A program made the translations under genes and the position numbers. Shown here piece by piece: positions 19,810-41,224 of a stretch of 62,654 nt of DNA. The stretch comes from Chthonomonadales bacterium (GTDB lineage: Bacteria; Armatimonadota; Chthonomonadetes; Chthonomonadales; CAJBBX01): assembly GCA_027459625.1 (NCBI GenBank), contig DAIDHP010000022.1, positions 1 to 62,654 on the forward strand, written 5' to 3'. Numbering within the stretch: the stretch's first letter is position 1; the number at the start of each line of letters is the position of its first letter. The notes beneath the pieces are model-generated. The model ran no database searches and had not been told where the DNA came from. It saw only the letters and a program-made list of their open reading frames with translations.

Positions 19810-21267
19810 TTATCGTAGTAATCTTACCCCGATAATGGGCGTTGTGTTACGGAATAGTTGATCCGCGCCAAGCCACAAGCCAAAATCGTTGTTGATACGG
19901 AAACGCGCCCTGGCGTTGAATATGAGATGATTGGGATCAAACAGGTCCAAGGAGAGCTGATCATCTGAATTCAGAGGGGTGTCCAATCCAATCCCGAGTT
20001 TCGAGGCGTACAACCCGTATCTCAACGCTCCGAAATCATCCAAATCCGTTTCGTATTGCGCGTTCACGCGATTATTGTTCGCGAAATCGTAAAATCCGAG
20101 GTCAAGAGCGTTTTTGTTTCTGAAAGGAATGCGTAGGTTCACATCCGAACGGAAGTGAGGGCTTTGCGCGCGCTCCAGAAAATCCACGCTGAATTGAGGT
20201 TTCCCGATCCCAATCCCGCCCTTCATGTTGGGGAGTTTGATTTGCTCCACCAACTTGTTCACATTTGCGACCAGTTTTTGGCTCTCCTGGGTGGTTGACT
20301 TCATCGATGCGACGGATTCCTTCAGATCGCTTTGTACGTTCGGATCGCCGGAAAACTGGTGAATATCCGAGGCGATCTGGTTAAAACGCGCGATGGTGGT
20401 TTTCGCCAACTCCAAGGTCTCCACCAGCGATTGCTGAATTCTCGGATCGCTCACCTGCTCCGAGAGGCGAGTCACGGCCGTGCGCGCGGCGTCCACCGTA
20501 TCCGCCATGTTTTGCAGGATGTCGATGGCGCTGTTCGCTATTTGGTCCACCTTCGTGCTGTTTCTGCTGGCGGTGGCGCGCAGTTCGGCGGTGATGACGG
20601 TCGCCGTTACGCGCGCCTGATGCGAAACCGCTTGCAGGTCGTCAAGGGTGTTGTCCATGGTTGTGCGAATTTTCGGATCCCCCAGCAAATCCTTGGCGGA
20701 TTTGGAGGCGTCCTGAAAATTCGACATCATCCCATTGGTTTTTTGCATGATGGAATGCACCTGGTCGAGAGTATCGGCGAGTTTGGGGGTGAGATTCTTC
20801 ACCGTTGCGCTGAGTTGCTTTAACGCCTGATCCGCCGTGGGGGATAGCTGGGCTAGGGCGGAGAGAGGCTGAGCCTGCACGTAACGTTGAGGCCACATCT
20901 CCCCAGGCTTGAGATATTGAGATGCAACGCCCGGAGTGATCTCCAGTAACGGGTTGGCGATCAGAAGTCCCGAACTGATTTGAATCATCGAATCATTCGG
21001 GATTCTGTTGAGATATTTGTCATCGATGGATAGTTCCACCACTGGCTTGAGCGTTTGGTCGTTCAGTTTGATGCTTTTAACCTGGCCGACCGTCACGCCG
21101 TTCATTCTGACCGGGGTCTGTTTCTGTAATCCGACCGTGTCATCGAAGGTGGCGTATAGGGTGAAGTGATCGAAATCCATATGAGCTAAAAGGAACCAGG
21201 CGCAGAAAAAGACGCCCATGCCGATAATGACCACAATGCCAACTTTGAGTGCGGCTACCTTTTCCAT
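19810..21267 (-). CDS. mlaD: MlaD-family MCE protein with a beta-barrel-like C-terminus
   Basis: MCE proteins carry lipids between the two membranes. Residues 7-29 form a membrane anchor (VGIVVIIGMGVFFCAWFLLA). The MCE domain follows at about 36-115 (VRMNGVTVGQVKSI). Residues 130-330 are a long helical stretch rich in repeated hydrophobic heptads. The last ~140 residues alternate polar and apolar positions (LDLGFYDFANN, ALRYGLYASKLGIGL, NHLIFNARARFRI), like outer-membrane beta strands. This layout matches the trans-envelope MlaD described from diderm Firmicutes. It starts one base after the URO-D-like gene, so the two are translationally coupled. Confidence 0.88.
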   Translation of the reverse strand: MEKVAALKVGIVVIIGMGVFFCAWFLLAHMDFDHFTLYATFDDTVGLQKQTPVRMNGVTVGQVKSIKLNDQTLKPVVELSIDDKYLNRIPNDSMIQISSGLLIANPLLEITPGVASQYLKPGEMWPQRYVQAQPLSALAQLSPTADQALKQLSATVKNLTPKLADTLDQVHSIMQKTNGMMSNFQDASKSAKDLLGDPKIRTTMDNTLDDLQAVSHQARVTATVITAELRATASRNSTKVDQIANSAIDILQNMADTVDAARTAVTRLSEQVSDPRIQQSLVETLELAKTTIARFNQIASDIHQFSGDPNVQSDLKESVASMKSTTQESQKLVANVNKLVEQIKLPNMKGGIGIGKPQFSVDFLERAQSPHFRSDVNLRIPFRNKNALDLGFYDFANNNRVNAQYETDLDDFGALRYGLYASKLGIGLDTPLNSDDQLSLDLFDPNHLIFNARARFRINNDFGLWLGADQLFRNTTPIIGVRLLR

Positions 21268-21268
21268 G

Positions 21269-22579
21269 TTATCCTCCCCCCCCGGCTCTTTCCGCTTCCT
21301 CTTTGGCTATCCGTGTCCATTCCACCACTCGATCGGGTGAGTTGGCGATAGTGTGGCAATCCTTCATGATTATCTCCACGCGGCACCCCTTGGTTGTCCG
21401 GAACATATCGCGGATGTTCCTGCGGATAGGATCGGTATCGAAATGGGAACGAGCCAGATCGCTGGGGTTGGGTTTCCATGAGAAGATGTATTTGTCCTGT
21501 AGGTTGTCCGCCATTTTTCTCACATCCGCCCACGGAGAAACGGACACCCGTCTCAACTTGGGGATTTTTTTCACATGCTTCCAACGCGAGTCCAGCGGCT
21601 CGCAGCATCCGTAGCAGTTCAATCCGAACCTATCCAATAATGGTAACTGATAGGGTAGCACAAATTCCTCGAACATATCCGGGGATATCCCAACCGTCTC
21701 CTGGCTCTCGGCAAATCCCCACATGTTTTCCAGTCGCACCTTGCCGTCCTCGCCCTTTTCCGGTATCTGGTCGGTCCATCCAAATCCGCCGGAGCCGACG
21801 TAGGTTCCGTCCGTGTTCGCGTACAACAGACCTGCCTTTTCCAGAAAATCCAGCCTTTTCAAATGGGAATCGCGAAGGAAACCCATTAACCTATGCACCA
21901 TTTCCGGGGCGTCGATCATGTCCATCATCATTCGCTCCATCCCTCTTAGGTATGCGAGCGACATCGTCAGCCCCAGCGTCCACCACCATACGGTTTTCAG
22001 TCTCACGTTCAGGATGTCTCCGAAAACCTCGTGAGCGATTTCCAATCTCTCCTCGGTGGCGGGCGTATTGATCTCTATTTTCGGAAACTTGAGTTTTTGC
22101 AAATCCTCCGGTTCGCGTATGGGGGCGTCCCAAACATAGGAGCCTGCGGCGTCCGTGCGATGGAACGTGATCGGCACCCCCATGTCCGTTTCCGTATGCA
22201 CATGGGACACCTCGAATATGCCGGTGATTACGCGGTCGTCCCGCATTCTCTCGCCCCAAAAAATCTCTCTTCGGAGAGCGAACTCCCACTCTCGAGCCAA
22301 GTTTTCACGGCAGGAAAGATCATCGGGATGGAAGATTTCGTTCCATCCGTTTTCCGGATCGCAAAACACCACCGGTCTCGTTGGCATCAATGCGTTGTGC
22401 TCTCTCCAAAGACGCTCTTTCTCCTTTTCAATGGGTCTGTCCGCCAAAAGGCGCACTCTCTCCGCCAGTTCTCTAAGGCGGTTCACGTCATCCGAAGGAA
22501 GCATGAGATTGCGTTTTAATACGATTGGCGCTGGTTGTGAAATGAGAACTTCTCCTGTGTCATCTTTATCCGGAAACAT
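21269..22579 (-). CDS. URO-D superfamily protein embedded in the Mla cluster
   Basis: The 436-residue protein resembles the uroporphyrinogen decarboxylase (URO-D) superfamily, which includes heme-pathway HemE and corrinoid-linked methyltransferases. Typical segments are the TIM-barrel stretch YANTDGTYVGSGGFGW, the mid-region AYLRGMERMMMDMIDAPEMVH and NCYGCCEPLDSRWK, where CYGCCE could bind a metal. It is longer and more divergent than true HemE (about 350), so the substrate is unknown. The start at 22579 (MFPDKDD) has AGGAG 7 bases upstream. It lies between mlaF and mlaD and is coupled to mlaD, an odd location for this family. Confidence 0.75.
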   Translation of the reverse strand: MFPDKDDTGEVLISQPAPIVLKRNLMLPSDDVNRLRELAERVRLLADRPIEKEKERLWREHNALMPTRPVVFCDPENGWNEIFHPDDLSCRENLAREWEFALRREIFWGERMRDDRVITGIFEVSHVHTETDMGVPITFHRTDAAGSYVWDAPIREPEDLQKLKFPKIEINTPATEERLEIAHEVFGDILNVRLKTVWWWTLGLTMSLAYLRGMERMMMDMIDAPEMVHRLMGFLRDSHLKRLDFLEKAGLLYANTDGTYVGSGGFGWTDQIPEKGEDGKVRLENMWGFAESQETVGISPDMFEEFVLPYQLPLLDRFGLNCYGCCEPLDSRWKHVKKIPKLRRVSVSPWADVRKMADNLQDKYIFSWKPNPSDLARSHFDTDPIRRNIRDMFRTTKGCRVEIIMKDCHTIANSPDRVVEWTRIAKEEAERAGGGG

Positions 22580-22764
22580 CGGCATGCTCCTATCGGCACG
22601 ACACCCATCTGCGACGTATGCAAGCAAATACGAGACTGCTATTAATTCATGGTTGCTATCCGTTGATTCCCGATTCGGAGGGAGCTAAATCAATCCCCTT
22701 GCTTGTTGGATTTGTATTCGCTAGTTTATATTATTATGAACCTTCTTCGCTTGGAATGTTACAC

Positions 22765-23493
22765 TCATGCGGATTGTATGAACTCCATAACCTTGGGATT
22801 ATCGGAGGATTTAATCTCTTCCGGTGTGCCGCAAATGATAATCTCCCCCGCTTCGAGCATGGCGATGCGATCCGCTATTCGGAATACCGAGGCGATATCG
22901 TGCGACACCACCACGGATGTCACGCCCGAACGCTCCCTTGTGCGCACAATAAGATCATCGATATTGCGGGCGATGACAGGGTCCAACCCGCTTGTCGGTT
23001 CGTCATAGAGAAGCAAGTCCGGTTTCATAGCCAAAGCGCGCGCCAGCCCAACTCTTTTCTGCATCCCTCCGGATAGCTCTGAAGGGAACATGGATTCCGA
23101 TCCCTCCATGTCCACTTCGCTCAGGCGGCGCGCAACGATCGCTTTGATATCCTTGCCCTTTGCCATTCCGTTCTGCACCAATCCGAACGCAACGTTATCA
23201 AAAACGGAAAGGGAATCAAATAGCGCCGCGTACTGGAACACCAATCCGACCTTCATCCTTATTTTGTCCATCTCGTATTCCGGAATCGGAACGATGTTAT
23301 TGCCGAAAAGCGATATCTCCCCGGAACTAGGTTTGCGCAGTCCGGAGAGGCATTTCAGCAGTGTGGTTTTCCCGCTGCCCGACATCCCGATCACCGCGAA
23401 TATCTCTCCGGAAAGAACCTCTAGGTTTATTTGATGCAATATGCGTTTTCCGGAAACTTGGTAATCCATATTTTTTATGCTAACGGGATTCAT
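22765..23493 (-). CDS. mlaF: MlaF-like ABC ATPase
   Basis: This 242-residue ATPase powers the MlaE permease in lipid transport. Walker A is GMSGSGKTT (36-44), the ABC signature LSGGMQKRVGLARALA, and Walker B LLLYDEPTSGLDP. The LSGGMQKRV form and GLDP context are typical of Mla/Ttg2 ATPases. It begins 10 bases after mlaE on the same strand. Confidence 0.93.
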   Translation of the reverse strand: MNPVSIKNMDYQVSGKRILHQINLEVLSGEIFAVIGMSGSGKTTLLKCLSGLRKPSSGEISLFGNNIVPIPEYEMDKIRMKVGLVFQYAALFDSLSVFDNVAFGLVQNGMAKGKDIKAIVARRLSEVDMEGSESMFPSELSGGMQKRVGLARALAMKPDLLLYDEPTSGLDPVIARNIDDLIVRTRERSGVTSVVVSHDIASVFRIADRIAMLEAGEIIICGTPEEIKSSDNPKVMEFIQSA

Positions 23494-23503
23494 ATAGGGT
23501 CTC

Positions 23504-24316
23504 TCAACGGATGGTAATGCTCGCGCCGGATAAAAGCTGAGCGAGGAAGAAATCCGAGATGAATATCAGCATCACGCATAACACCACGGATCGCGTGGTG
23601 GAGCGTCCCACTCCCACAGCCCCTCCTTCAGTCTTTAAACCCTGATGACACGCGATCACGGCAATGGTGAAGCCAAACCAAATGGTTTTAACCAATCCTT
23701 TGATCATGTCGCGTTCGGTTACGAAGGTGCGGGCGGATTCCAGAAAGGTTTGCCCCGGAACGCCATGGTATAGCGCCATCAGGAAGGAGCCCCCCACTCC
23801 CGCGAGATCGGCGAAAACCCCCAACACGGGCAGCATCAGCACGCAAGCCACAATCCTCGGGAGCACCAAGTACCGAATCGGCGAGACCGCCATGGATCGC
23901 AGCGCATCCACCTGTTCCGTTACCACCATGGATCCGATCTCCGCTGCGATAGCGGCCCCGATACGCGCGGATACGGTTACGCCCGCCAGCAGCGGGCCGA
24001 GTTCCATCAGGAAGGAGAGTGTGAGCGTTCCGCCAACGTAATTCATCGCGCCGAAATGGATGAAAATGTCCGCAGTGTAATAGGCGAAAACGGCGCCTGT
24101 GGAGAGGGTGGTGATCATGACGATGGAGAGCGAATCAGCCCCGATGGCGGACATCTGGTTGATGGTTTCCCGTAGGTTCAGTCTGCCGCGCACCAAGTAG
24201 AGAAGCGACATGTACGCCAAAGTGGCGGTTTCGCCTAGGAACGTCAGGAAAGTGATAACAATCGAGCCACCGAACGATGGGATTTTTTTCGCCTGTGGAG
24301 CTGTGTGATCAATCAT
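23504..24316 (-). CDS. mlaE: MlaE-like ABC permease
   Basis: The 270-residue permease has five or six membrane segments and the MlaE landmarks MELGPLLAGVTVSARIGAAIAAEIGSM, here split as GPLLAGVTVSARIG and AAEIGSMVVTEQVDAL, plus YLVLPRIVACVLMLPVL. It dimerises in the inner membrane and passes lipids to or from MlaD. The ATG at 24316 avoids overlap with the upstream gene; a TTG at 24355 would overlap it. Confidence 0.93.
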   Translation of the reverse strand: MIDHTAPQAKKIPSFGGSIVITFLTFLGETATLAYMSLLYLVRGRLNLRETINQMSAIGADSLSIVMITTLSTGAVFAYYTADIFIHFGAMNYVGGTLTLSFLMELGPLLAGVTVSARIGAAIAAEIGSMVVTEQVDALRSMAVSPIRYLVLPRIVACVLMLPVLGVFADLAGVGGSFLMALYHGVPGQTFLESARTFVTERDMIKGLVKTIWFGFTIAVIACHQGLKTEGGAVGVGRSTTRSVVLCVMLIFISDFFLAQLLSGASITIR

Positions 24317-24326
24317 GACCTGATTA

Positions 24327-24962
24327 TTATACGGGTTTGGTGTTTGCCCTGTCAATCAAGGCGGGCTGCAGTTTCAGATATCTTGAGTAATTCCCATGAT
24401 AAAATCTGTACAACACAATGCTCGCCACTATCATACTTTGAAATAGATGATATCCTATTTCGGAGTATTGTCGCAAGGGGAAAACGATGCCGAACTTGAG
24501 GAGGATATTGTCCAAGGCAACCCAGAAGATAAGTAATTGCATGCCAGCCCAGAAATAACCGAGATTGACAAACAGATAGCGTATGATGTTATCCTGCTTG
24601 CTTCGGGAGCCTTGGCCGTAAGCGATGGTGCGGCAGAAGGAATCAAAATCCGCCCCTGCGGCGGGGTAACAGCTTTTTCGATAGGAGAGGTAGAAGTAAT
24701 AACCCCCGACCGCGATCGCCCCGCCGATGATCTTGGCGAAAATCAACCCCGCCCATCCCAATCCGAACACTCTCTCCAAAACATTCCATTCGTTGGCAAG
24801 GTTCGGAGACACGATATAGGTGCTTAGCAGGTCCAATGTGTTGGCTAATACCACCATCAAAGATACTACGAGAAGCTTGTTCCAATCCGACAAGCTTAAA
24901 TCCTCCCGCTCCGCGGAATTCGGATTTTTTATCTCAGCCAGAATTACACTTCCCACTCTCAT
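24327..24962 (-). CDS. Membrane protein of unknown function, possibly DUF5658-like
   Basis: A 211-residue protein with about four membrane segments (LLVVSLMVVLANTLDLLSTYI, split after residue 20; LIFAKIIGGAIAVGGYYFYL; YFWAGMQLLIFWVALDNILL; SMIVASIVLYRFY). The phrase NTLDLLSTYIVSPNLANEWN recalls DUF5658 proteins, but I cannot confirm it. It is first in the apparent transcript leading to mlaE-mlaF and lies 10 bases upstream of mlaE. The ATG at 24962 is preferred over a GTG at 24980. Confidence 0.6.
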   Translation of the reverse strand: MRVGSVILAEIKNPNSAEREDLSLSDWNKLLVVSLMVVLANTLDLLSTYIVSPNLANEWNVLERVFGLGWAGLIFAKIIGGAIAVGGYYFYLSYRKSCYPAAGADFDSFCRTIAYGQGSRSKQDNIIRYLFVNLGYFWAGMQLLIFWVALDNILLKFGIVFPLRQYSEIGYHLFQSMIVASIVLYRFYHGNYSRYLKLQPALIDRANTKPV

Positions 24963-30302: not shown

Positions 30303-31673
30303 ATGTCACATGAGGAAATGGAAAACAAATCAGGCAGCATGTCGTACTTGATGCTGATTACGGTGGTGGCGGCGTTGGGGGGATTGTTGTTCGGATACGA
30401 TACGGCCGTGATATCCGGTGCGGTGGGATTCCTGCAAAAGCATTTTCAACTCAACGCCGGTTTGGAGGGGTTTGCGGCGTCCAGCGCCTTGATTGGATGT
30501 ATTTTCGGGGCGCTTTTCGGTGGTCCGTTAAGCGACCGTTACGGCCGCAAGAGCGTAATGATTTCCTGCGCCATTCTATTCGCTCTTTCCGGCGTCGCCT
30601 CCGCCTTGCCGCATACTCTAACCCAGTTCGTTTGGGCGCGGTTTTTCGGAGGGTTCGCCATAGGCGCTGTCTCGGTGGTCTCCCCCCTTTATATTGCGGA
30701 GATCGCCCCGGAGAAGATTCGCGGAACTCTTGTGTCGCTCTACCAGCTTGCAATTGTTATTGGCATACTCGTTGTGTTCTTTGTGAACATGTTGATCCAG
30801 CGTTTGGGGAACGAGGCGTGGAATGTGGCGTATGGGTGGAGATGGATGCTGGGCTCCCTGGTATTTCCCTCCGGACTGTTCGGAATTCTTGCAATCGGGA
30901 TACCGGAAAGCCCACGCTGGCTCATGAAAATGGGGCGGCGGGAAGCCGCATCTGAAATCCTCGTTCGAGTAGGCGGGCAAGCGAACGCTTCGCGGGAAAT
31001 CCGACAAATTGAGGATTCCCTCCAGCAAGAGACGAGTTCCTTTTCGGAACTCTTCACTGGTGGTTACAAACCGGCGCTGGTTGTGGGGGTGGTGCTTGCC
31101 GTTATCTGCCAATTCAGCGGTATAAACGCAATAATGTATTACGCCCCTGAGATTTTCAGAGCCATCGGGGTGGCAAGAAACGCCGCTTTCGCTGAAACCG
31201 TTTCCGTCGGGATGGTCAACCTGATATTCACATTCGTCGCGATATGGCTCGTCGACAGGGCGGGAAGGAAAGCCCTTTTGGTGGTAGGCTCCATTGTACA
31301 GGTGATCGCCCTAACGGCGGTTGGGCTAATGTATGCGATGCACGCAGGAGGGATGTGGCTGTTGGTTTTCGTACTGCTATTTATCGCCGCCTTCGCATCC
31401 GCCATGGGGCCGATTCCGTGGATTATCATCTCAGAAATATTCCCCACCAAAATACGCGGTCGCGCCATGGCGATCGCCGTTCTCGTGATCTGGGTTGCGG
31501 ATTACATTGTTTCTCAGACTTTCCCCATGCTTGCCAAGGGAATCGGGGACGCGAAAACCTTCTGGATATACGCAATTTGCAGTTTTCTTGGATTGATCTT
31601 TATTCTTTTCAAGGTTCCTGAAACCAAGGGTAAAACCTTGGAGGAGATTGAACGCTCATGGATTGGAAAATAA
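30303..31673 (+). CDS. Sugar-porter family MFS transporter
   Basis: A 456-residue, 12-helix transporter with sugar-porter signatures: GGLLFGYDTAVISGA near the start, SDRYGRKSVM between helices 2 and 3, IPESPRWLMK mid-protein and VPETKGKTLEEIE at the end. It probably imports mannose or a mannoside by proton symport. It follows the isomerase gene by 131 bases and the next gene's start lies 17 bases after it. Confidence 0.93.
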   Translation: MSHEEMENKSGSMSYLMLITVVAALGGLLFGYDTAVISGAVGFLQKHFQLNAGLEGFAASSALIGCIFGALFGGPLSDRYGRKSVMISCAILFALSGVASALPHTLTQFVWARFFGGFAIGAVSVVSPLYIAEIAPEKIRGTLVSLYQLAIVIGILVVFFVNMLIQRLGNEAWNVAYGWRWMLGSLVFPSGLFGILAIGIPESPRWLMKMGRREAASEILVRVGGQANASREIRQIEDSLQQETSSFSELFTGGYKPALVVGVVLAVICQFSGINAIMYYAPEIFRAIGVARNAAFAETVSVGMVNLIFTFVAIWLVDRAGRKALLVVGSIVQVIALTAVGLMYAMHAGGMWLLVFVLLFIAAFASAMGPIPWIIISEIFPTKIRGRAMAIAVLVIWVADYIVSQTFPMLAKGIGDAKTFWIYAICSFLGLIFILFKVPETKGKTLEEIERSWIGK

Positions 31674-31690
31674 GACGAAAGGATGTCGAG

Positions 31691-34600
31691 ATGGAGTGTC
31701 AATTGAGGTTAATGCGTAATCGTTTCGCACGGAATGCCAAACGCTGTTTGGTGACAATTAAATTCTTGCCGATACTTTTATTGTGGACATGTTTGGGTCT
31801 CTCGGCTCACGCATCTCCGGAAACTATCTGGAGCATAGGCGTGAAGGACAACTCGGGGAGGGAGTTCGCTTTATTCGGAAACTACGGCGAGTACGCCAGC
31901 CACTTTCCGTCGAACTACACTTATTATATCGGTAAAAGCATCGCGTCGGACTGGCCATACATCCAGCCAGGTCCGGTGGATTCGTGGGCGGGAAACGTGG
32001 CGCATTCCCTCTCCATCGCGTTTCCTCTCGAATCCGTGCCAGCAGGCGAATGTACGCTGGTGTTGGATATCGTCAGCGCACAGGGACAGGCTCCGCCCAC
32101 GTTGAAAATCTCCATCAACGGCGCCCCCATGCTTTTAAAACTGCCGCCAGGCCCGGGGGATATCGTTCTCAGCGATGAAAAAGCGGCGCATCCGCAATCT
32201 TTTCGATTGCAGTTCAATCCCAAATTCCTGAAAGCGGGGAGCAATCGTATCACGATAACCACCATCTCCGGAAGTTGGGTTCTATATGACGCACTTCATC
32301 TGGAAACCGATCCGGATGTCAAACCGTTATTCCTAAGCAACGCCTCTCTCCTGTCGGACTTTTTCTTTTTGCGAAGGCAAGGGAAACTAATGCAAGTGGT
32401 CACGTTGAATGTATATAACGACGACACTCCCGGCACGGGCGAAGCGGTAATTTCCTATAATGGTACGACGGAAAGGCAAAGCGTCGCCCTTGGAGTTGGA
32501 GATAATAGCCTTGCCTTGGCTATCAACCCTGTGAAGGCTCCTACGCCTGTGACCGTTCACCTCTTGTTTCGCGATCATGATGTCACTGTTAAGGGTGAGG
32601 CGAAGCCGCAGCGTAAATGGACGGTATGCATCGTTCCGTCCGTCCACATTGACGTGGGATACACGGAATTGCAGTCCGTTGTGAGACAGCGTCATGATGA
32701 GAACTTGGATAATGTGATAAAGATTTGCGAAGCCGATCCGAATTTCCGCTGGAATATCGAGGGGAGTTGGGTTGTGCAGAACTACCTCGCGGATCGCCCG
32801 GCATCGCAAAGGAAAAAACTCATCAAGCTCCTACAAGAGGGAAGGATTGAGCTAACCGCCGGATATTTCAACATGCTGACCGGTTTGATGTCCAACGAGG
32901 AGATGAATCGATACGCCTATGTGTCCGCGTATTACCACAGGAAATACGGCTTCCCGTTGGTTTCCGCCGACCTCACGGACGTACCCTCCGCGAACATGGG
33001 CTTGGAGATGGCTTTGGCGGGCAGCGGGATACGCTTCTTCGCGGAAGGAGTCAACCAGACGCGCGCTCTAACACTCGCCAACTCCAACATCCACACCCCC
33101 TTCTATTGGGAGGGGGCTGACGGATCGCGACTGCTATGCTGGCTTAGCAATGGTTACGGGCAAAGCATTTGGATGGATCAGAACACGAACGCTTCTCAAT
33201 CCGAAACCGAGGATTGGATTAGGAGCATCGTCAACGGTTATAACAATGAAAACTACCCATACAATCTCATCTATGTATACGGGGCGATGTATGAAAACTC
33301 GATTATCGATCTGAATTACGGCAAATTGGCGGAAAAATGGGATGCTCACTGGGCTTATCCGAAATTGGAATTGGTGACGGAATCGCAGTTCTTCCGCCAG
33401 GCGGAAAAAGAGTATGGCAATCATTTTCCGGTGGTGCGGGGAAGCTTTGGATCCTTTTGGGAGGATGGAGCGGGTTCCACTGCGTTGGAAACGACGATGA
33501 ATCGCAATTCGCAGCGCAGAATAACTCAAGCCCAGACGTTGTGGTCTCTGGCGAACCTGCTTGGCAACCGGACGGCGTATCCGGTGAGCAAGTTTGATTC
33601 CGATTGGCAGCAGATATTCCTCTACGATGAACACACTTGGGGCGCGGCGGGTTCCATCTCGGATCCGGATTCCTCCATGACCAAGACGCAGTGGGCGGTG
33701 AAGAAACAATACGCCTTCACGGCGATGAAGGAGACGAATACGCTTCTCGCCGAAGGTTTGTCCGCATATATCAAATCCGTTCCCGCGCGTCCTGGTGACA
33801 TCGTCGTATGCAACACACACTCATGGGAGCAGAGCGGTTTGACGCCTGTTCCGGAAGGGTTGCCGAATACGATCCATATCGTGGATTCCAATGGTAAAAC
33901 CGTTCCCACCCAAAAGATACAGGGAGTCGAATACTTCTATGCGGAGAATGTGCCTGGTTTGGGTTATCGCACCTACCGCCTTCAAAATGGAAGGACGAAA
34001 ACATCGGTGACCGAGGTTCAATCGCAGGTGATGGAAAATCGGTTTTATCGAATCCGCCTCTCTCCGAAGCGGGGAATTGACAGCGTAATCGATCGTGAGA
34101 CCGGTAAAAACTTAGTTGACTCCACTGCGCCTTACTTCCTTGGACAGGTGATCTACGCATCCGGCGCGGACGGAACGCGGCTCATTAACAGTGACCTGAC
34201 TCAGCCCGTACCGCCCGTGCGCATCAATAACGATGGCAATCCGCTCGAGGCACCCGCGCAAACGATACTCGTCACGCCCGAAAAGATTTTGTCCATCTCG
34301 CCTGTTCATAAAGGGGCGCTCTTTTCGTATGTCACAATCACCTCCGAAATCCAAGGGGTGGCTCAAATCACCACGGATGTGCGCCTGTATAACCGGATCA
34401 AAAGAATTGAGTTTGATATCAATATGATGAAGACCCCCATCCGGTTAAAAGAGGCGATGTACGTGGCGTTTCCATTCCAAGTGCGTAAGCCCCATGTAAT
34501 TATGGACACTACGGAGGCGATCATTGATCCCGTTCGCGATATGATCAAAGGTTCCTGCAACGACTGGTACTCCATTCGCGACTGGGTTTCCGAGGGGTCT

Positions 34601-35161
34601 GCAAGGGGAGAGGACATCGTGTGGTCTTCACCTGATGCGCCATTGATCACTTTGAGCGATATCAATCGGGGCGAGTGGTATGCACGACCGCATATCACCA
34701 ATGGCTACGTCTTCTCCTATGTGATGAATAATTACTGGTTCACCAACTACAAGGCGGATCAGGGGGGAGCCTTCCGCTTCCGCTACGCCATCACCTCCTC
34801 CGCGCATAAGATATCCGCGTTGAGATGCGAACAATTCGCGAACGCCTTTCCCGGCGAGTTGCCGGACGGGATATCGCAAGGGGTAAGCAAAGAGGATCGC
34901 ATTCCGGTCCGGTTGCAAGGTGGGAATGTGTCCATGGTCACCATGAAGAAGGCGCAGGACGGATATGGCTATATCCTCAGAATTCGCAATCTTGCTGACA
35001 AAGCGACGCAAGCGCATCTGTTTATATCTCAAACGAGAATGCGTCATGCGGAGTTGGATAACCTCATAGAGGAGAAAATCAAACCGTTGACCGTTAAATC
35101 CGGCGGGATAACGATCGATCTTAAACCAATGGCTACGGCTACGGTGCGAATTTACCCGTAA
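31691..35161 (+). CDS. Secreted glycoside hydrolase family 38 alpha-mannosidase-like enzyme
   Basis: The 1156-residue protein has a signal peptide (LPILLLWTCLGLSAHA). An N-terminal domain (ETIWSIGVKDNSGREF) resembles domain III of family 4 polysaccharide lyases and may bind carbohydrate. The GH38 catalytic barrel starts with HIDVGYT (His at about 319), the zinc site of the family, with the nucleophile region SADLTDVPSANM near 427. Beta-rich C-terminal domains follow. It should release mannose outside the cell or in the periplasm for the co-encoded porter, kinase and isomerase. The start at 31691 has AAGGA 9 bases upstream. Confidence 0.88.
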   Translation: MECQLRLMRNRFARNAKRCLVTIKFLPILLLWTCLGLSAHASPETIWSIGVKDNSGREFALFGNYGEYASHFPSNYTYYIGKSIASDWPYIQPGPVDSWAGNVAHSLSIAFPLESVPAGECTLVLDIVSAQGQAPPTLKISINGAPMLLKLPPGPGDIVLSDEKAAHPQSFRLQFNPKFLKAGSNRITITTISGSWVLYDALHLETDPDVKPLFLSNASLLSDFFFLRRQGKLMQVVTLNVYNDDTPGTGEAVISYNGTTERQSVALGVGDNSLALAINPVKAPTPVTVHLLFRDHDVTVKGEAKPQRKWTVCIVPSVHIDVGYTELQSVVRQRHDENLDNVIKICEADPNFRWNIEGSWVVQNYLADRPASQRKKLIKLLQEGRIELTAGYFNMLTGLMSNEEMNRYAYVSAYYHRKYGFPLVSADLTDVPSANMGLEMALAGSGIRFFAEGVNQTRALTLANSNIHTPFYWEGADGSRLLCWLSNGYGQSIWMDQNTNASQSETEDWIRSIVNGYNNENYPYNLIYVYGAMYENSIIDLNYGKLAEKWDAHWAYPKLELVTESQFFRQAEKEYGNHFPVVRGSFGSFWEDGAGSTALETTMNRNSQRRITQAQTLWSLANLLGNRTAYPVSKFDSDWQQIFLYDEHTWGAAGSISDPDSSMTKTQWAVKKQYAFTAMKETNTLLAEGLSAYIKSVPARPGDIVVCNTHSWEQSGLTPVPEGLPNTIHIVDSNGKTVPTQKIQGVEYFYAENVPGLGYRTYRLQNGRTKTSVTEVQSQVMENRFYRIRLSPKRGIDSVIDRETGKNLVDSTAPYFLGQVIYASGADGTRLINSDLTQPVPPVRINNDGNPLEAPAQTILVTPEKILSISPVHKGALFSYVTITSEIQGVAQITTDVRLYNRIKRIEFDINMMKTPIRLKEAMYVAFPFQVRKPHVIMDTTEAIIDPVRDMIKGSCNDWYSIRDWVSEGSARGEDIVWSSPDAPLITLSDINRGEWYARPHITNGYVFSYVMNNYWFTNYKADQGGAFRFRYAITSSAHKISALRCEQFANAFPGELPDGISQGVSKEDRIPVRLQGGNVSMVTMKKAQDGYGYILRIRNLADKATQAHLFISQTRMRHAELDNLIEEKIKPLTVKSGGITIDLKPMATATVRIYP

Positions 35162-35387: not shown

Positions 35388-38300
35388 CTATTTGACAGTC
35401 ACTTTCTGCATGGCGGTTCCGGTAAGCCCTGCGGTATTGAACGCCATGACTTCAATCTCATGGTCGCCCGCGGATAGCGGCTGAGTGATGATGGTGAAAT
35501 CCTCCATTGGGCCGTCGAATAGGCCGTCATTTGGAATGGCAGAAATCCACTCCCCTTTGTCCACTCTGAATTGCACCGCGTTTATGGCGATCCCTTTTTG
35601 AACCGCGGTTCCTTCCAACTTTACGCTCTTATCCGCGTTCACCTTTAAGCTGGAGCTTTGAACATACACTACCGGCTTGGTATTGCAAATATAAACCGAA
35701 TCGGATATCGCGTCGCCCGACAAAGGCGCTGCCGGATTGCTGATGTAATCCGACGCCACCACTTTGAACTGATAGATTCCATCGGGAAGCGTTTTGGTGT
35801 CCAAAATCCGAGAGGTCTCCTTGGCGGTGGCTTCCGCCGCTGCGGCGTTCTCGCTTTCCGACGAAGTCGTGGAAGTCTTTTTGGACTTGTATTGCTCCAA
35901 AAGTGTTTTGGCTCTGCTAAGGATCGCCTCTCGCAATTGAGGAGGCAAATCGGGATGCTTGTCCAACTCCGCCGTGACTTGAGCCATCGTGGGGGGATTG
36001 CCCGCGCCGGAATCAGCGGAGGATGACGATTTGGATACGGATGTCGTTATCGTTTTACCCTTGCTGATGCTGTCGGAAGGCAATAACGTCCAGGTTTTCC
36101 CTTCGTCGTTGCTGTAATACACCTTGTAAGTGAGCGTCTCCTTGTCCGGATCGGAAGCCTGCCATCGCAAGGTCTGCTTGCCTGACCATCGCGCTCCTCC
36201 CGTTGGGGCGAGCAAGGTGATCTTTGGCGGATGATTTTGCGGCAGGAAACTGACACTCAAGTTCTTCAATGTGGGTGATGAAAGTATCGATTTGGCGGAC
36301 ATGTCCACACGATATTGAATGTATCTCGCCGGTGGGTTCAGAATTCTATATCCGTCTCCCTCCGACACCAAACTCTTCCACCCAGTCCAAGTGGAATCCG
36401 GCTCGGCGATATTTCCCGTGCGCACTTGTATCCCAACGTGGGAGCCGTCGGGCTTATCGCCGTCCCACCGTATCATTCCCCATTGGGAAGTGTCCTTGGC
36501 GTCATGAACGATGGAGGTGTAGGTGCCACTGAGATTTGATGTCGGAGCGGCTGCGATAAACAGGGAGCCCGGATTGCCGGATCCGATTAGGATATTCCCC
36601 TTGGCGTCCAGCCCCAGCGAAATGAAGTCGATGTCCGCGCTGTTGTTGGACGAGGATACCGATCCATCCGGTTTGATGTCATATAATGAATTGGAGCCGC
36701 AAGCGTAAACCTCATCATCGGGGGCGACCACCAGCGCATTAAATCCCGGAGCCTTGTCATAAAGCGTTTTGGATGAGCCGTCAGGGGATATCTTGTAGAT
36801 ATATCCCGTCGGGGCGGTCACGGCGTAGATATTCCCCTTGCTGTCAATTCCGATGGAGGTCACGCTGGGCTGCTTGGAATCAAATATCACCGCACCTTTG
36901 CCGTCGGGGGATATGCGATAGATGACTCCATCCTCTCCGGTACCGGCGTAGAGGTTGTTTTTCGCATCCGTCGCGAGGCAAAGCACATGCTGTTCAGCTG
37001 TGTGATAAAAAAGCGTCGTTTTACCATCGGGTTGCACGCGATAGATATTTCCGATGCCTCCCCCAGTGCCGATATAGAGGTTACCTTGGCTATCCTTCGC
37101 CAATGCAAGGGCGTATTTCTCATTGGCTGTGTCGATAACCATGGGTTTCCCATCCGTTTGCACCCGATACGTTTTTCCGTTTGGTCCCGTGGCGGCGTAT
37201 ACCGATCCGTCGGGGCCAGGTAGCAATGCGCGTACGAACACCTCCGGCAATGTGGCGAATACGCTTAATCCTTTCCCTGGCGTGTAACGGAGGATTTTCC
37301 CTTGGGTGCCCGTTCCGAGGAGGAAGCTATCGCTGCCGTAAGGAATAACGGACCAGATATAACTTTCCGTGCTTGAAGCGATCTGTTTGATATCTCGTGT
37401 GAGAGTCAGATCCCCTTTTGCAGTGACGCACGCTCCGTCAAACTGCCCCTTCAGAAAATCCGTTCTCGTTCCCTGTGTCCAAGTCTCCACCATTCGCCCC
37501 ACGGGTTTTTCGGTCGTTTTAGAGGTCTCCTCGGGCGATCCCGTTTCCTCCGAGGATGCGGTGGATGTGGCGGATGGCGGATTTTTGGCGCCTTTCGTCT
37601 GTTCCGGAGGCGTTGGCTTTGCGGGTTTCACTTCGACATTCACGGTTTTTTCCGCCAATCCGAATTCATTGGCATAGGAATCGCCGTTATCGGAACTAGT
37701 GTCCTGATCCATCAAAATCATCCCCCCGGGTGGCGGCGACATTGGTGAGACTGAGGGCGAGCCTTCCGGTGTCGGAGACTGCTCGGGGGCGTTTTCCTGA
37801 TCGCTCTTCTTTTGCACTTTTATTAACATGAGTTGTTGCCCGGATATAACCCAAGCGGTTGGATCAATGGTCTTGACTTGGTCGCTATCCAAGCGCACAT
37901 TACTTGATCGAATGGAGCGCATCAGCGTATCCATGTTCGGCGGCAAATTTGGTAGTTTCTCTCCGTCGACGTCCAGTGACGTGGTGCGCAGAAGAAGTTG
38001 AGCCAAAATATCGTTGTTCTTTTCCTTTTTGTCGTAACGTTGTATCATCTCCTGGATGGAGGCGGGAGGAGCCTGTTGCGTCACCTGTGTTTGCTGAGCG
38101 CGAATGATGATGCCGCCCAAGGATAACGCGGGAGGAACCGCTCCGCCTCTCACCAAAAGGGGATACATCCCGTTGGGGGTGTTCTCGGGTATCTTCACCT
38201 TCAAATACCGAGTAACCACCGGAGAGTCATAGGGTTTGATATCCATTCCAACCGTGAAAGTCTCCCCCGGTGTGAACTGACCGTCTTTGATAAATATTCG

Positions 38301-39686
38301 TTTTAAAACGGCGGTTTCGTGTGCGCTGTGCATCACTACGGATATGTTTGCGCTTTTTATCGAGACCGGATGGAAGGGGTTGTTGGTGAGGATATCCAGT
38401 ATGTTATCCAAATCATCGGTTGCGCTCGCATCGATGGCTTGGTTATCGTAACAGACGTTTTTGCGAGTGACCACTCCGTATCCATCGGTATCCACGGTCG
38501 TTACGACGTTTGCGACCGTGGGGCCCGGTTCGCTGTGGATCTCATTAATCGCCGACTCCGTTACGGAACTGACCAATCCTGCCCAAAGGTCGGGATGTCT
38601 AATTACCTGAACATGAAACACCTTGGCGCGGCCAGTGGTCTGATCCTGTACGTTCACGGTTACGGGAATCATCTTCGGCTGCCTGCCGATGTATCCGCTC
38701 ACTGCGAAATTCCTATCCTGATCGGAAGCCCCCACGATCGGACCGGGGCTGGCTATTTTATACGATCCTTCAAGAAGCGGATAGACATCATACACATATG
38801 CGGAACATATCGGAGCGTCAATCGGCCCGATATCCATGAAGGGGTGACCGAACCCAAGAATACGGTTGCCCAATCGATAAGTTACGGTTCCCGTCGCTCC
38901 AGCATACAGGTCGCCGGTGGCGAGCATCATGGAGAAGGAGGCTCCCGGAACCAACGCCGCGCCTTTGAAGTTCTTTTTCATCCCCATGCCCGCCACTTGT
39001 TTCACGACGTCAACGTTATACCGCGACATCATTTTTTTGAGATGGCTGAAAGCATTCCCCGTTAAGCCCGAGCATGTCATAAAAGTTGTGCATGGATGCA
39101 TCACCAAGGTGGTTCCATGTGAAAATATGTGCTCGTCCTGTGGAACGTTGTAAACAATACGAGTGATTTTCCTTGAGCCGGCGTACAGAGGCGTACTCAG
39201 AACTATCGTTTGTGCATGATTGTTCGGAAGAAAAGCCACCGGTTTAGTGGGGAGTTGCGGGTCCCATTCCGAGAGCATGTCCTGGATCGGTGTGACGCCA
39301 CCCAAGGGTTCCGTGGACATCGGTTCCCCTTGTGAGAATGCACCGATGATCTTGCCGTCAATGTAGACGGGACTTCCGCTCATACCGCGAATGAGGTTCG
39401 CTTTCCGAGTGGTCATGGGACCGCCAGCCATGCGAACCAGGATCATATCATGCCCCGGTACGACCATGGAGCCTTTTTTCACAACCCCGATCACTTTCAC
39501 GAAGAATTTGGATATCGTGGTTCCCCGGAAAACGGTCAGTCCGTATCCCGTCATCCCCGCGTGAACTTCCGTGATCGGCATAATGCCTGGATATTTTGTG
39601 GCGGCGTATCCCTTTGGAGGGAGTCCCAAAAGAATAAGCGCGCATGCGCTCAGAGTAACGATCGTGCGTTGAAATGATGGATGCAA
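35388..39686 (-). CDS. Giant secreted SpoIVB-like (S55) peptidase fused to a beta-propeller and beta-sandwich domains
   Basis: This 1432-residue protein has a signal peptide (residues 1-29). Residues 35-400 resemble the S55 serine peptidase of SpoIVB, with GMTGYGLTVFRGT and the catalytic-serine box GMSGSPVYIDGK (101-112). A Pro/Ser/Thr-rich linker lies near 640-740. Residues about 770-1040 form a propeller of short repeats (DGSVYAATGPNGKTYRV, NLYAGTGEDGVIYRISPDG, GNIYAVTAPTGYIYKISPDG). Ig/Fn3-like sandwiches end the protein. SpoIVB itself triggers sigma-K processing in sporulation and uses a PDZ domain not obvious here. In this genome it more likely processes or senses an envelope protein. 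Confidence 0.8.
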   Translation of the reverse strand: MHPSFQRTIVTLSACALILLGLPPKGYAATKYPGIMPITEVHAGMTGYGLTVFRGTTISKFFVKVIGVVKKGSMVVPGHDMILVRMAGGPMTTRKANLIRGMSGSPVYIDGKIIGAFSQGEPMSTEPLGGVTPIQDMLSEWDPQLPTKPVAFLPNNHAQTIVLSTPLYAGSRKITRIVYNVPQDEHIFSHGTTLVMHPCTTFMTCSGLTGNAFSHLKKMMSRYNVDVVKQVAGMGMKKNFKGAALVPGASFSMMLATGDLYAGATGTVTYRLGNRILGFGHPFMDIGPIDAPICSAYVYDVYPLLEGSYKIASPGPIVGASDQDRNFAVSGYIGRQPKMIPVTVNVQDQTTGRAKVFHVQVIRHPDLWAGLVSSVTESAINEIHSEPGPTVANVVTTVDTDGYGVVTRKNVCYDNQAIDASATDDLDNILDILTNNPFHPVSIKSANISVVMHSAHETAVLKRIFIKDGQFTPGETFTVGMDIKPYDSPVVTRYLKVKIPENTPNGMYPLLVRGGAVPPALSLGGIIIRAQQTQVTQQAPPASIQEMIQRYDKKEKNNDILAQLLLRTTSLDVDGEKLPNLPPNMDTLMRSIRSSNVRLDSDQVKTIDPTAWVISGQQLMLIKVQKKSDQENAPEQSPTPEGSPSVSPMSPPPGGMILMDQDTSSDNGDSYANEFGLAEKTVNVEVKPAKPTPPEQTKGAKNPPSATSTASSEETGSPEETSKTTEKPVGRMVETWTQGTRTDFLKGQFDGACVTAKGDLTLTRDIKQIASSTESYIWSVIPYGSDSFLLGTGTQGKILRYTPGKGLSVFATLPEVFVRALLPGPDGSVYAATGPNGKTYRVQTDGKPMVIDTANEKYALALAKDSQGNLYIGTGGGIGNIYRVQPDGKTTLFYHTAEQHVLCLATDAKNNLYAGTGEDGVIYRISPDGKGAVIFDSKQPSVTSIGIDSKGNIYAVTAPTGYIYKISPDGSSKTLYDKAPGFNALVVAPDDEVYACGSNSLYDIKPDGSVSSSNNSADIDFISLGLDAKGNILIGSGNPGSLFIAAAPTSNLSGTYTSIVHDAKDTSQWGMIRWDGDKPDGSHVGIQVRTGNIAEPDSTWTGWKSLVSEGDGYRILNPPARYIQYRVDMSAKSILSSPTLKNLSVSFLPQNHPPKITLLAPTGGARWSGKQTLRWQASDPDKETLTYKVYYSNDEGKTWTLLPSDSISKGKTITTSVSKSSSSADSGAGNPPTMAQVTAELDKHPDLPPQLREAILSRAKTLLEQYKSKKTSTTSSESENAAAAEATAKETSRILDTKTLPDGIYQFKVVASDYISNPAAPLSGDAISDSVYICNTKPVVYVQSSSLKVNADKSVKLEGTAVQKGIAINAVQFRVDKGEWISAIPNDGLFDGPMEDFTIITQPLSAGDHEIEVMAFNTAGLTGTAMQKVTVK

Positions 39687-39846: not shown

Positions 39847-40236
39847 TCACTTTTTTCCGTATATCTCTTCCGGCGTTTTTAGTTGAGTGGCGATAACCTC
39901 AAGGCGTTCTCCGGATGATTGCACCTCTCGAAAGAAACAGGAACGATAGCCTTCATGGCACGCCGCTCCTTCCTGCTCAACCTCCGCTAGAAGACAGTCC
40001 TGGTCGCAATCAACATAGATTCTTTTCAGATGCTGGAAATGACCGCTCGTCTCTCCTTTTATCCAAAACTTCTGTCGGGAGCGACTCCAAAAAGTCACTT
40101 TTTTCGTGAGGATGGTCTGTTCCACCGCTTCACGATTCATATATCCGACCATTAACACCTGTCCGTTTTCAGAATCCTGAACAACAGCCGGAATTAATCC
40201 GTTTCCATCAAACTTCAAATCTTTTAACGCTTCCAA
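39847..40236 (-). CDS. hisI: Phosphoribosyl-AMP cyclohydrolase HisI
   Basis: HisI opens the adenine ring of phosphoribosyl-AMP in histidine synthesis. The zinc and magnesium sites are visible: DCDQDCLL, then [11 protein letters not shown] (Cys spacing as in the family). At 129 residues it lacks the fused HisE domain. It lies 217 bases downstream of hisF on the same strand. Confidence 0.96.
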
Positions 40237-40453
40237 GGATCGCCCTTTCTGTTTGGAGAGGAGTGTGATACGCCTATATGGACGTTAATCGTCCGAAATG
40301 CGTGCTGCACAGCCCGTGAATAGTTAATTGTCGTTAGATATCGTCAAAATACCACCCTTGCAGGCAATGGCATAAGAAAACTAAACAGAAAAGCCTGCAA
40401 ATGAGTTTAAAAACGCTTATTGAAAGCTCTGCGAACCGTTTGGCATTTGCTTC

Positions 40454-41224
40454 TTATCTTACGCAAACGCCTTTGGCTTGGAGATAGTCCTTGATCTCCC
40501 GAATGGTGTAGGTTCCATCATGAACCATGGAAGCGATCAGCGCCGCGTCGGCTTGCCCATCCGTAACAGCCTCCAGGCAGTGATGCGGTGTACCCGCGCC
40601 GCCTGAAGCGATCACCGGAATCGACACCCTGCTCGCCACCGCCCTTGTTAGTTCCAAATCGTATCCCACTTGGGTGCCGTCTCTGTCCATGCTGGTCAGA
40701 AGTATCTCACCCGCTCCCAACTCCTCCGCTCGCTGCGCCCATTCCAATACATCCACGCCCGTGGGAGTTCGCCCGCCGTGTATGAACACCTCCCATTTGG
40801 GTGAGCCGTCCGGATATGTTCCCGTTCGCTTGGGATCGATAGCCACGACCACGCACTGGTTGCCGAATTGCCGCGCCGCCTCGGTGAGAATCTCCGGTCT
40901 CTGTATGGCTGCGGTGTTTACGCTGACCTTGTCCGCGCCCGCCTTGAGAATCTTACGAAAATCGTCGGTGGTTCGAATCCCGCCGCCGACGGTGAATGGG
41001 ATGAAAACCTGCTCCGCCACTCGTGCCGCCACATCGTAGATGATGTCTCGCTTCTCGTGACTTGCCGTAATATCCAAAAAGACAAGCTCGTCCGCCCCCA
41101 TCTGATCGTATCGGGAGGCTAACTCCACAGGATCGCCTGCGTCGCGAAGGTTAAGAAAATTCACTCCCTTCACAACCCGTCCCTCTTTTACATCCAAGCA
41201 GGGGATAATTCGTTTTGCGAGCAT
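40454..41224 (-). CDS. hisF: Imidazole glycerol phosphate synthase subunit HisF
   Basis: HisF is the cyclase half of the glutamine-dependent synthase that makes imidazole glycerol phosphate and AICAR. The 256-residue barrel has CLDV with catalytic Asp11 near the N-terminus, [15 protein letters not shown] with the second catalytic Asp, and ASGGAG. The partner HisH is not in the window. The gap to hisI (217 bases) contains nothing recognisable. Confidence 0.97.

Follow-up and report, generated by a model that had tools for sequence, protein, structure and literature searches.

A putative circularly permuted sister family of the peptidase SpoIVB, coupled to a propeller in several phyla and predicted to act in the envelope of outer-membrane bacteria

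The serine peptidase SpoIVB (family S55; PF05580, TIGR02860; structure 9LNF) acts between two membranes, and the HtrA proteases DegP and DegS carry out envelope quality control. A relative of SpoIVB is encoded in a Chthonomonadales bacterium of the Armatimonadota (assembly GCA_027459625.1), on contig DAIDHP010000022.1, of which positions 1 to 62,654 were analyzed (hereafter the window, 62,654 nucleotides). The gene (35388-39686, minus strand) encodes 1432 residues: a peptidase region followed by a beta propeller and beta sandwiches.

In the SpoIVB crystal structure, Asp363 lies about 24 Å from His236, and Thr393 was proposed as the third catalytic residue instead (PMC12502668). Vpar_0521 of Veillonella parvula is an outer-membrane protein with an N-terminal SpoIVB domain and an uncharacterised role (PMC5491611). 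A 2016 phylogenomic study listed, for a gene cluster of diderm Firmicutes, conserved unknown proteins which monoderm Firmicutes lack (PMC5007114); that Vpar_0521 is one of these rests on a statement in PMC5491611. A study of Mla-TamB lipid transport in V. parvula covers mlaEFD, tolC and tamB (PMC10665443), with no mention of SpoIVB, a peptidase or a protease in the portion of its main text covered. What is already known amounts to the Peptidase_S55 family in databases and one member in an outer-membrane proteome; no description of a permutation of the S55 family was found in the open-licence PMC literature.

Judged by its sequence, the window protein belongs to a circularly permuted sister family of SpoIVB and should not be taken for SpoIVB minus its PDZ domain. 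The predicted catalytic residues follow the order Ser103, His281, Asp324, whereas in SpoIVB His236 precedes Ser378, as His comes first and Ser last in other PA-clan peptidases. In an alignment of 32 sequences collected without motif selection (L054, which ends at a contig edge, was left out), all three residues are invariant (32/32) and the peptidase domain holds no other invariant His. In a larger alignment His281 and Asp324 are conserved in 108/108 rows, as is Ser103, there by selection; at least four contigs are duplicated (L036/L066, L039/L067, L046/L069, L042/L073), leaving at most 104 distinct sequences among the 108, and five rows without the strict GH pattern, dropped in one count, were later restored, His and Asp being present at the aligned positions of every one. 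The same order runs through the family: in nine canonical proteins the Ser of GMSGSP lies at residues 386-429 of the open frame with GH before it, whereas in the permuted proteins that were fetched it lies at about 94-160, GH follows 130-231 residues later, and no member with His before Ser was found. A PF05580 match spanning 28-193 in Colibacter, with one internal stop, was treated as upstream read-through plus a permuted gene.

Because the order of the halves is reversed, the Pfam S55 model sees only the Ser half: in the window protein the PF05580 match covers residues 39-116 at 19.1 and 22.9 bits, below the cut-off of 25, and is limited to profile positions 117-190 of 210, the Ser region. 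A peptidase family of many diderm phyla sits unexamined under a sporulation name, with half of it hidden from Pfam by the permutation.

Profile comparisons clearly establish homology between the Ser half and its SpoIVB counterpart: hhalign of the two Ser halves gives E 4.6e-17 and 9.8e-22, and the 9LNF sequence is matched at E 2.5e-8 (hmmsearch). For the His half, hhalign against 76 canonical sequences yields 82 co-linear columns in which His aligns with His and Asp324 with Asn (P 2.9e-4), and when columns of the two profiles were shuffled, a score as high as the observed one arose in 1 of 150 shuffles. The motif GT-h-[TS]-[FYWHE]-x(4-12)-..GH, chosen after both groups had been seen, occurs in 36/36 canonical and 99/108 permuted proteins and in 0/1292 other open reading frames (ORFs) of the same loci. 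An hhalign run with relaxed gap penalties was discarded as evidence, the PDZ control having scored too (P 3e-4).

The domain is predicted to adopt the PA (trypsin-like) two-barrel fold, with the Ser barrel first and the His barrel second, two barrels on which the AlphaFold2 (AF2) models and the VIA-align structure matches agree. The mean predicted local distance difference test score (pLDDT) is 86.8 for a 609-residue domain and 93.3 for the His half folded alone. Model residues 2-114 superpose on the Ser-bearing C-terminal barrel of DegP (DegP residues 151-260; Z 7.2, root-mean-square deviation (rmsd) 3.0, 102 aligned), and the Ser half also matches MamO (Z 6.5, rmsd 3.2, 98 aligned) and residues 313-416 of SpoIVB 9LNF (Z 6.2, rmsd 2.4, 103 aligned). 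For the His half (best Z 6.9, rmsd 3.2, 70 aligned), 46 of 50 VIA-align matches carry protease titles, a protease paralogue included; the other four are MreC (two), PilZ and an umbrella toxin particle. These structural matches are modest: all VIA-align Z scores lie below 8, a range that can reflect a common arrangement; Foldseek returned no match at E<=0.001 for the 609-residue domain or the His half; and 9LNF, fourth in the Foldseek ranking for the His half (E 0.45), is absent from the 50 VIA-align matches.

The invariant Asp324 bears on the open question of the third catalytic residue of SpoIVB. The canonical position aligned to it is Asn in 76/76 sequences, residue 290 of Bacillus subtilis SpoIVB by offset from the 9LNF alignment. 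Canonical proteins also keep Asp363 (76/76) and Thr393 (75/76), whereas at the Asp363 position the permuted family has Gly in 86, Asp in 10, Ser in 10 and Asn in 2 of 108. The alignment points to Asn290 as a candidate third residue of SpoIVB.

Much of the preliminary description of this DNA, made from the letters and an ORF list, stands. The 1432-residue fusion frame lies exactly where it was placed, and it is not accidental: in other Armatimonadota genomes, 31 homologues of 1299-1692 residues align along its length, and a 32nd ends at a contig edge. The GMSGSP box (residues 101-106) is intact. No PDZ domain appears among the Pfam matches up to E 1, and nothing supports a PDZ identity for the linker at residues 148-234. 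An absent His or Asp had been named as fatal to the idea of a peptidase; both are present, on the C-terminal side of the Ser box. The propeller and the sandwiches behind the peptidase are borne out: Reg_prop PF07494 matches above its cut-off (E 7e-9), phmmer against the PDB matches residues 866-1035 to propellers, both designed and natural, a motif recurs every ~40 residues (796, 879, 920, 961, 999, 1040), and beta-rich regions follow; the phmmer search returned no peptidase among its matches. Upstream of these, complement MG/Ig-like structures match model residues 425-597 (VIA-align Z ~6). Secretion had been proposed too, and the protein is most likely exported to the periplasm, with a signal-peptide-like N-terminus as in most relatives: a hydrophobic N-terminal stretch is found in 106/108 family members and a lipobox-like motif in 6/108. 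Two points need correction: the S55 match is partial and stays under its cut-off, and the conserved His comes after the Ser box, the swapped order having gone unnoticed.

The propeller half is a recurrent partner. Among 107 S55 proteins from loci L034-L145 (for 6 of the 112 loci, greedy ORF picking yielded no S55 frame), it is part of the same chain in 51, encoded by the next gene in 26 and neither in 30, two of these at contig ends. The adjacent propeller genes lie on the same strand, encode 642-793 residues and are separated from the S55 gene by -152 to 238 bp. Fused forms come mainly from Armatimonadota and Obscuribacterales, adjacent genes from Planctomycetota, Acidobacteriota, Gemmatimonadota, Latescibacterota and others, and S55 proteins without a propeller half mostly from Bacillota. 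That the halves are fused in some phyla and encoded side by side in others strongly indicates a joint function.

Where the propeller is missing, envelope genes are frequent neighbors. Downstream on the same strand in 28 propeller-less loci, with labels from Pfam scans of representatives, lies mlaE (with an ABC gene and/or mlaD) in 11, tamB in nine and bamA in one, and mreB occurs within 14 of the 28. In Negativicutes the S55 gene sits in an mla-tolC-tamB-bamA cluster, and two Armatimonadota genomes (G044 and G057) have, in addition to their fused copies, an S55 gene that is not fused and immediately precedes mlaE. This company of mlaEFD, a tolC-type OEP gene, tamB and bamA suggests a part in moving lipids or beta-barrels to the outer membrane. 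As separate observations, a Negativicutes locus (L120:6009-7463) has a NAGPA (phosphodiester glycosidase) and AMIN-domain protein just upstream of S55, after flagellar P- and L-ring genes, and a Bacillota assembly (L127) holds two permuted S55 genes in one 12.9-kb locus.

The permuted family occurs mainly in outer-membrane bacteria, sporulating or not. An alignment-based scan of named genomes, considered for the best 80 of 587 candidate stretches encoding a relative, returned Armatimonadota, Obscuribacterales, Planctomycetota, Acidobacteriota, Gemmatimonadota, Latescibacterota, Zixibacteria, Verrucomicrobia, Negativicutes, Halanaerobiales and others; many titles belong to metagenome assemblies and are not reliable (e.g., 'Actinomycetota' for L069). 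A protein search found the S55 domain in 40 of 61 Armatimonadota genomes, and the match is unique within the source genome. PF05580 is matched in 99 of 100 genomes of Negativicutes, the class of a Pelosinus assembly: a full-length canonical match accompanies a partial one in 39, the partial match stands by itself in 60 and the canonical by itself in none. Partial matches were counted as permuted by profile range and ORF length, the order being read directly only in fetched loci. In a Bacillota sample of 61 genomes, the canonical form is present in 53 and the partial form in 13; Omp85 is found in 14, including all 13 with the partial form, which is absent from the 47 Omp85-negative genomes (13/14 vs 0/47, Fisher 2e-12, a test that ignores kinship). 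In G213, the sole Omp85-positive Bacillota genome without a permuted S55, the Omp85 matches are fragmentary (positions 114-325 and 1-44).

Starting from the directly observed architecture, residue order, conservation, gene partnership and outer-membrane co-occurrence, the favored reading, held at a probability of roughly two in three (0.66), is that of a periplasmic PA-fold serine endopeptidase, a permuted SpoIVB relative with a propeller docking module, that serves outer-membrane biogenesis or maintenance. The peptidase would be exported to the periplasm and would fold as two beta barrels, the Ser barrel before the His barrel, with Ser103, His281 and Asp324 forming a putative active site at their junction; this triad would cleave an envelope protein, the propeller and sandwich half would most likely tether the enzyme to the substrate or an envelope complex, and the enzyme would probably process or clear a component of the Mla/TamB/BamA path of lipid and protein transport. 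The preliminary description had suggested signaling across the envelope; the evidence points to outer-membrane biogenesis or maintenance as the more specific role.

Several observations weigh against so specific a role. Twenty-one of the 61 Armatimonadota genomes have no S55 match, yet 58 of the 61 have Omp85; a profile search of these 21 found none, while three positive controls matched. No mlaE, tamB or bamA neighbor is seen in 7 of the 28 propeller-less loci, and the fused copies lack conserved envelope neighbors, the mlaE of the window being 11 kb away. The last of these points and the gap in Armatimonadota, along with secretion and the large adhesive-type modules, are what a generic secreted peptidase would display, one that breaks down nutrient or surface proteins, binds substrate through its propeller and sandwiches, and is tied to the outer membrane only by its need for a periplasm. 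Such an enzyme is nevertheless unlikely in view of the near-universal presence in Negativicutes, small genomes included, and of the gene's position inside the mla-tolC-tamB-bamA cluster.

Slightly less probable again is a catalytically dead scaffold, or a lipid- or protein-binding outer-membrane component, that retains a protease fold: no activity is known for the family and the V. parvula member was detected in the outer-membrane fraction (PMC5491611), but scaffolds usually lose their catalytic residues and here Ser, His and Asp are all invariant without motif selection.

About as improbable is the absence of any permutation, i.e., an unrelated C-terminal barrel joined to the Ser barrel, with GHP and Asp324 playing structural parts. 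The His half bears a weak resemblance to SpoIVB (P 0.018 to 2.9e-4): hhalign with nine canonical sequences did not detect it, and with 36 it recovered only the Asp/Asn block (P 0.018-0.022). The VIA-align matches of the His half lie for the most part on the C-terminal barrel of PA proteases, a barrel similar to the N-terminal one, and do not single out the latter. Against an unrelated barrel stand the co-linearity of the blocks with SpoIVB, His aligned to His, and the lack of another invariant His in the domain. A conventional SpoIVB with a role in sporulation, for which the homologous Ser half speaks, can be dismissed: Spo0A_C and SpoIVA_ATPase are absent from the source genome while both are detected in a B. 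subtilis control, which refutes it by gene content unless the 96.55%-complete assembly misses all sporulation genes, the order is reversed, there is no PDZ, and 60 of 100 Negativicutes genomes have the partial form but no canonical SpoIVB. The permuted peptidase is not a sporulation protein, and the absence of Spo0A_C and SpoIVA_ATPase fits the non-sporulating organism supposed in the preliminary description.

Far more tentatively, the permuted peptidase and SpoIVB might be two arrangements of one ancestral between-membranes enzyme, at work in the diderm periplasm and in the forespore intermembrane space, with SpoIVB derived through re-permutation, a PDZ having been inserted in the His barrel and the Asp exchanged for Asn (Ser-His-Asn); this is possible, though doubtful. 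If true, a Ser-His-Asn triad would explain the lack of an acidic third residue near the active site in the SpoIVB crystal, and the common ancestry would tie outer membranes to endospore formation in concrete molecular terms. The Omp85 co-occurrence in Bacillota makes the relation between the outer membrane and sporulation testable.

Table 1. Features of the S55-like gene and its upstream neighbor, in window coordinates.
Feature	Position	Strand	Basis
Whole gene: secreted, putatively permuted S55-like peptidase with propeller and beta sandwiches, 1432 residues	35388..39686	-	TTG start; homologues align full length
Signal peptide (predicted), residues 1-29, AxA-like end	39600..39686	-	Read from sequence
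Ser half, residues 33-147, predicted beta barrel equivalent to PA-clan C-terminal barrel	39246..39590	-	hhalign and VIA-align
Ser103 in GMSGSP, predicted nucleophile	39378..39380	-	Invariant 32/32, rows collected without motif selection
Alpha/beta linker joining the halves, residues 148-234, no PDZ recognised	38985..39245	-	AF2 secondary structure
His half, residues 235-367, predicted second beta barrel	38586..38984	-	AF2, VIA-align matches, hhalign to SpoIVB His half
His281 in GHP, predicted catalytic base	38844..38846	-	32/32 and 108/108
Asp324, predicted third triad residue	38715..38717	-	32/32 and 108/108; aligns with invariant SpoIVB Asn
Helix, alpha/beta piece and Ig-like sandwich, residues 368-640	37767..38585	-	AF2; complement MG/Ig-like VIA-align matches
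Low-complexity linker, residues 641-734, between parts encoded as two genes in other phyla	37485..37766	-	
Beta propeller, residues 735-1045	36552..37484	-	Pfam, phmmer against PDB, motif spacing
C-terminal beta sandwiches, residues ~1053-1432	35391..36530	-	Weak Pfam matches; conserved family blocks
hisI-like gene directly upstream of the S55 gene, a neighbor and not part of the system	39847..40236	-	Translation read

Other genes of the window can be noted beside these features. Directly upstream, hisF- and hisI-like genes (39847-41224, minus strand) each belong to an orthologue group that recurs in 10 loci, and the hisF-hisI-S55 gene order seems to be kept within the taxonomic order. Convergent with the S55 gene lies a gene for a 1167-residue secreted protein (31658-35161, plus strand), which by its translation alone resembles an alpha-mannosidase-type glycoside hydrolase. 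At 19810-24355 (minus strand), mlaE and an ABC ATPase gene are followed by a gene of 452 residues that weakly matches URO-D and, after it, by mlaD, i.e., a URO-D-like gene within a Mla-type operon. A link between these mlaE/ABC/mlaD genes (19.8-24.4 kb) and the S55 gene was considered and rejected: among the 37 Armatimonadota genomes with MlaE (38 searched), MlaE is close to S55 only in G044 and G057.

Set beside the described systems, the window protein resembles DegP and DegS in the fold of its Ser barrel, a comparison made by fold alone; the order His-Asp-Ser and the PDZ domains are HtrA features that it does not share. Vpar_0521 is likewise a SpoIVB-domain protein of a non-sporulating diderm, and its locus number is consistent with the gene that lies upstream of mlaE in Negativicutes loci; it differs in having no propeller half, and the permutation, the triad and the wider distribution are not described in the covered portions of PMC5491611 and PMC5007114. 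With SpoIVB the protein shares a homologous Ser half bearing GMSGSP, a predicted two-barrel peptidase fold and a probable place of action between two membranes. By contrast, SpoIVB has His before Ser, a PDZ domain, an invariant Asn at the Asp324 position, an invariant Asp363 and a tie to sporulation, whereas in the permuted protein the halves are swapped, no invariant equivalent of Asp363 exists, and the peptidase is fused to a propeller and sandwiches. Finally, the Mla-TamB system of V. parvula has the same gene neighborhood as the permuted S55 gene. This gene is a lead for an unknown step of outer-membrane lipid or protein homeostasis outside Proteobacteria.

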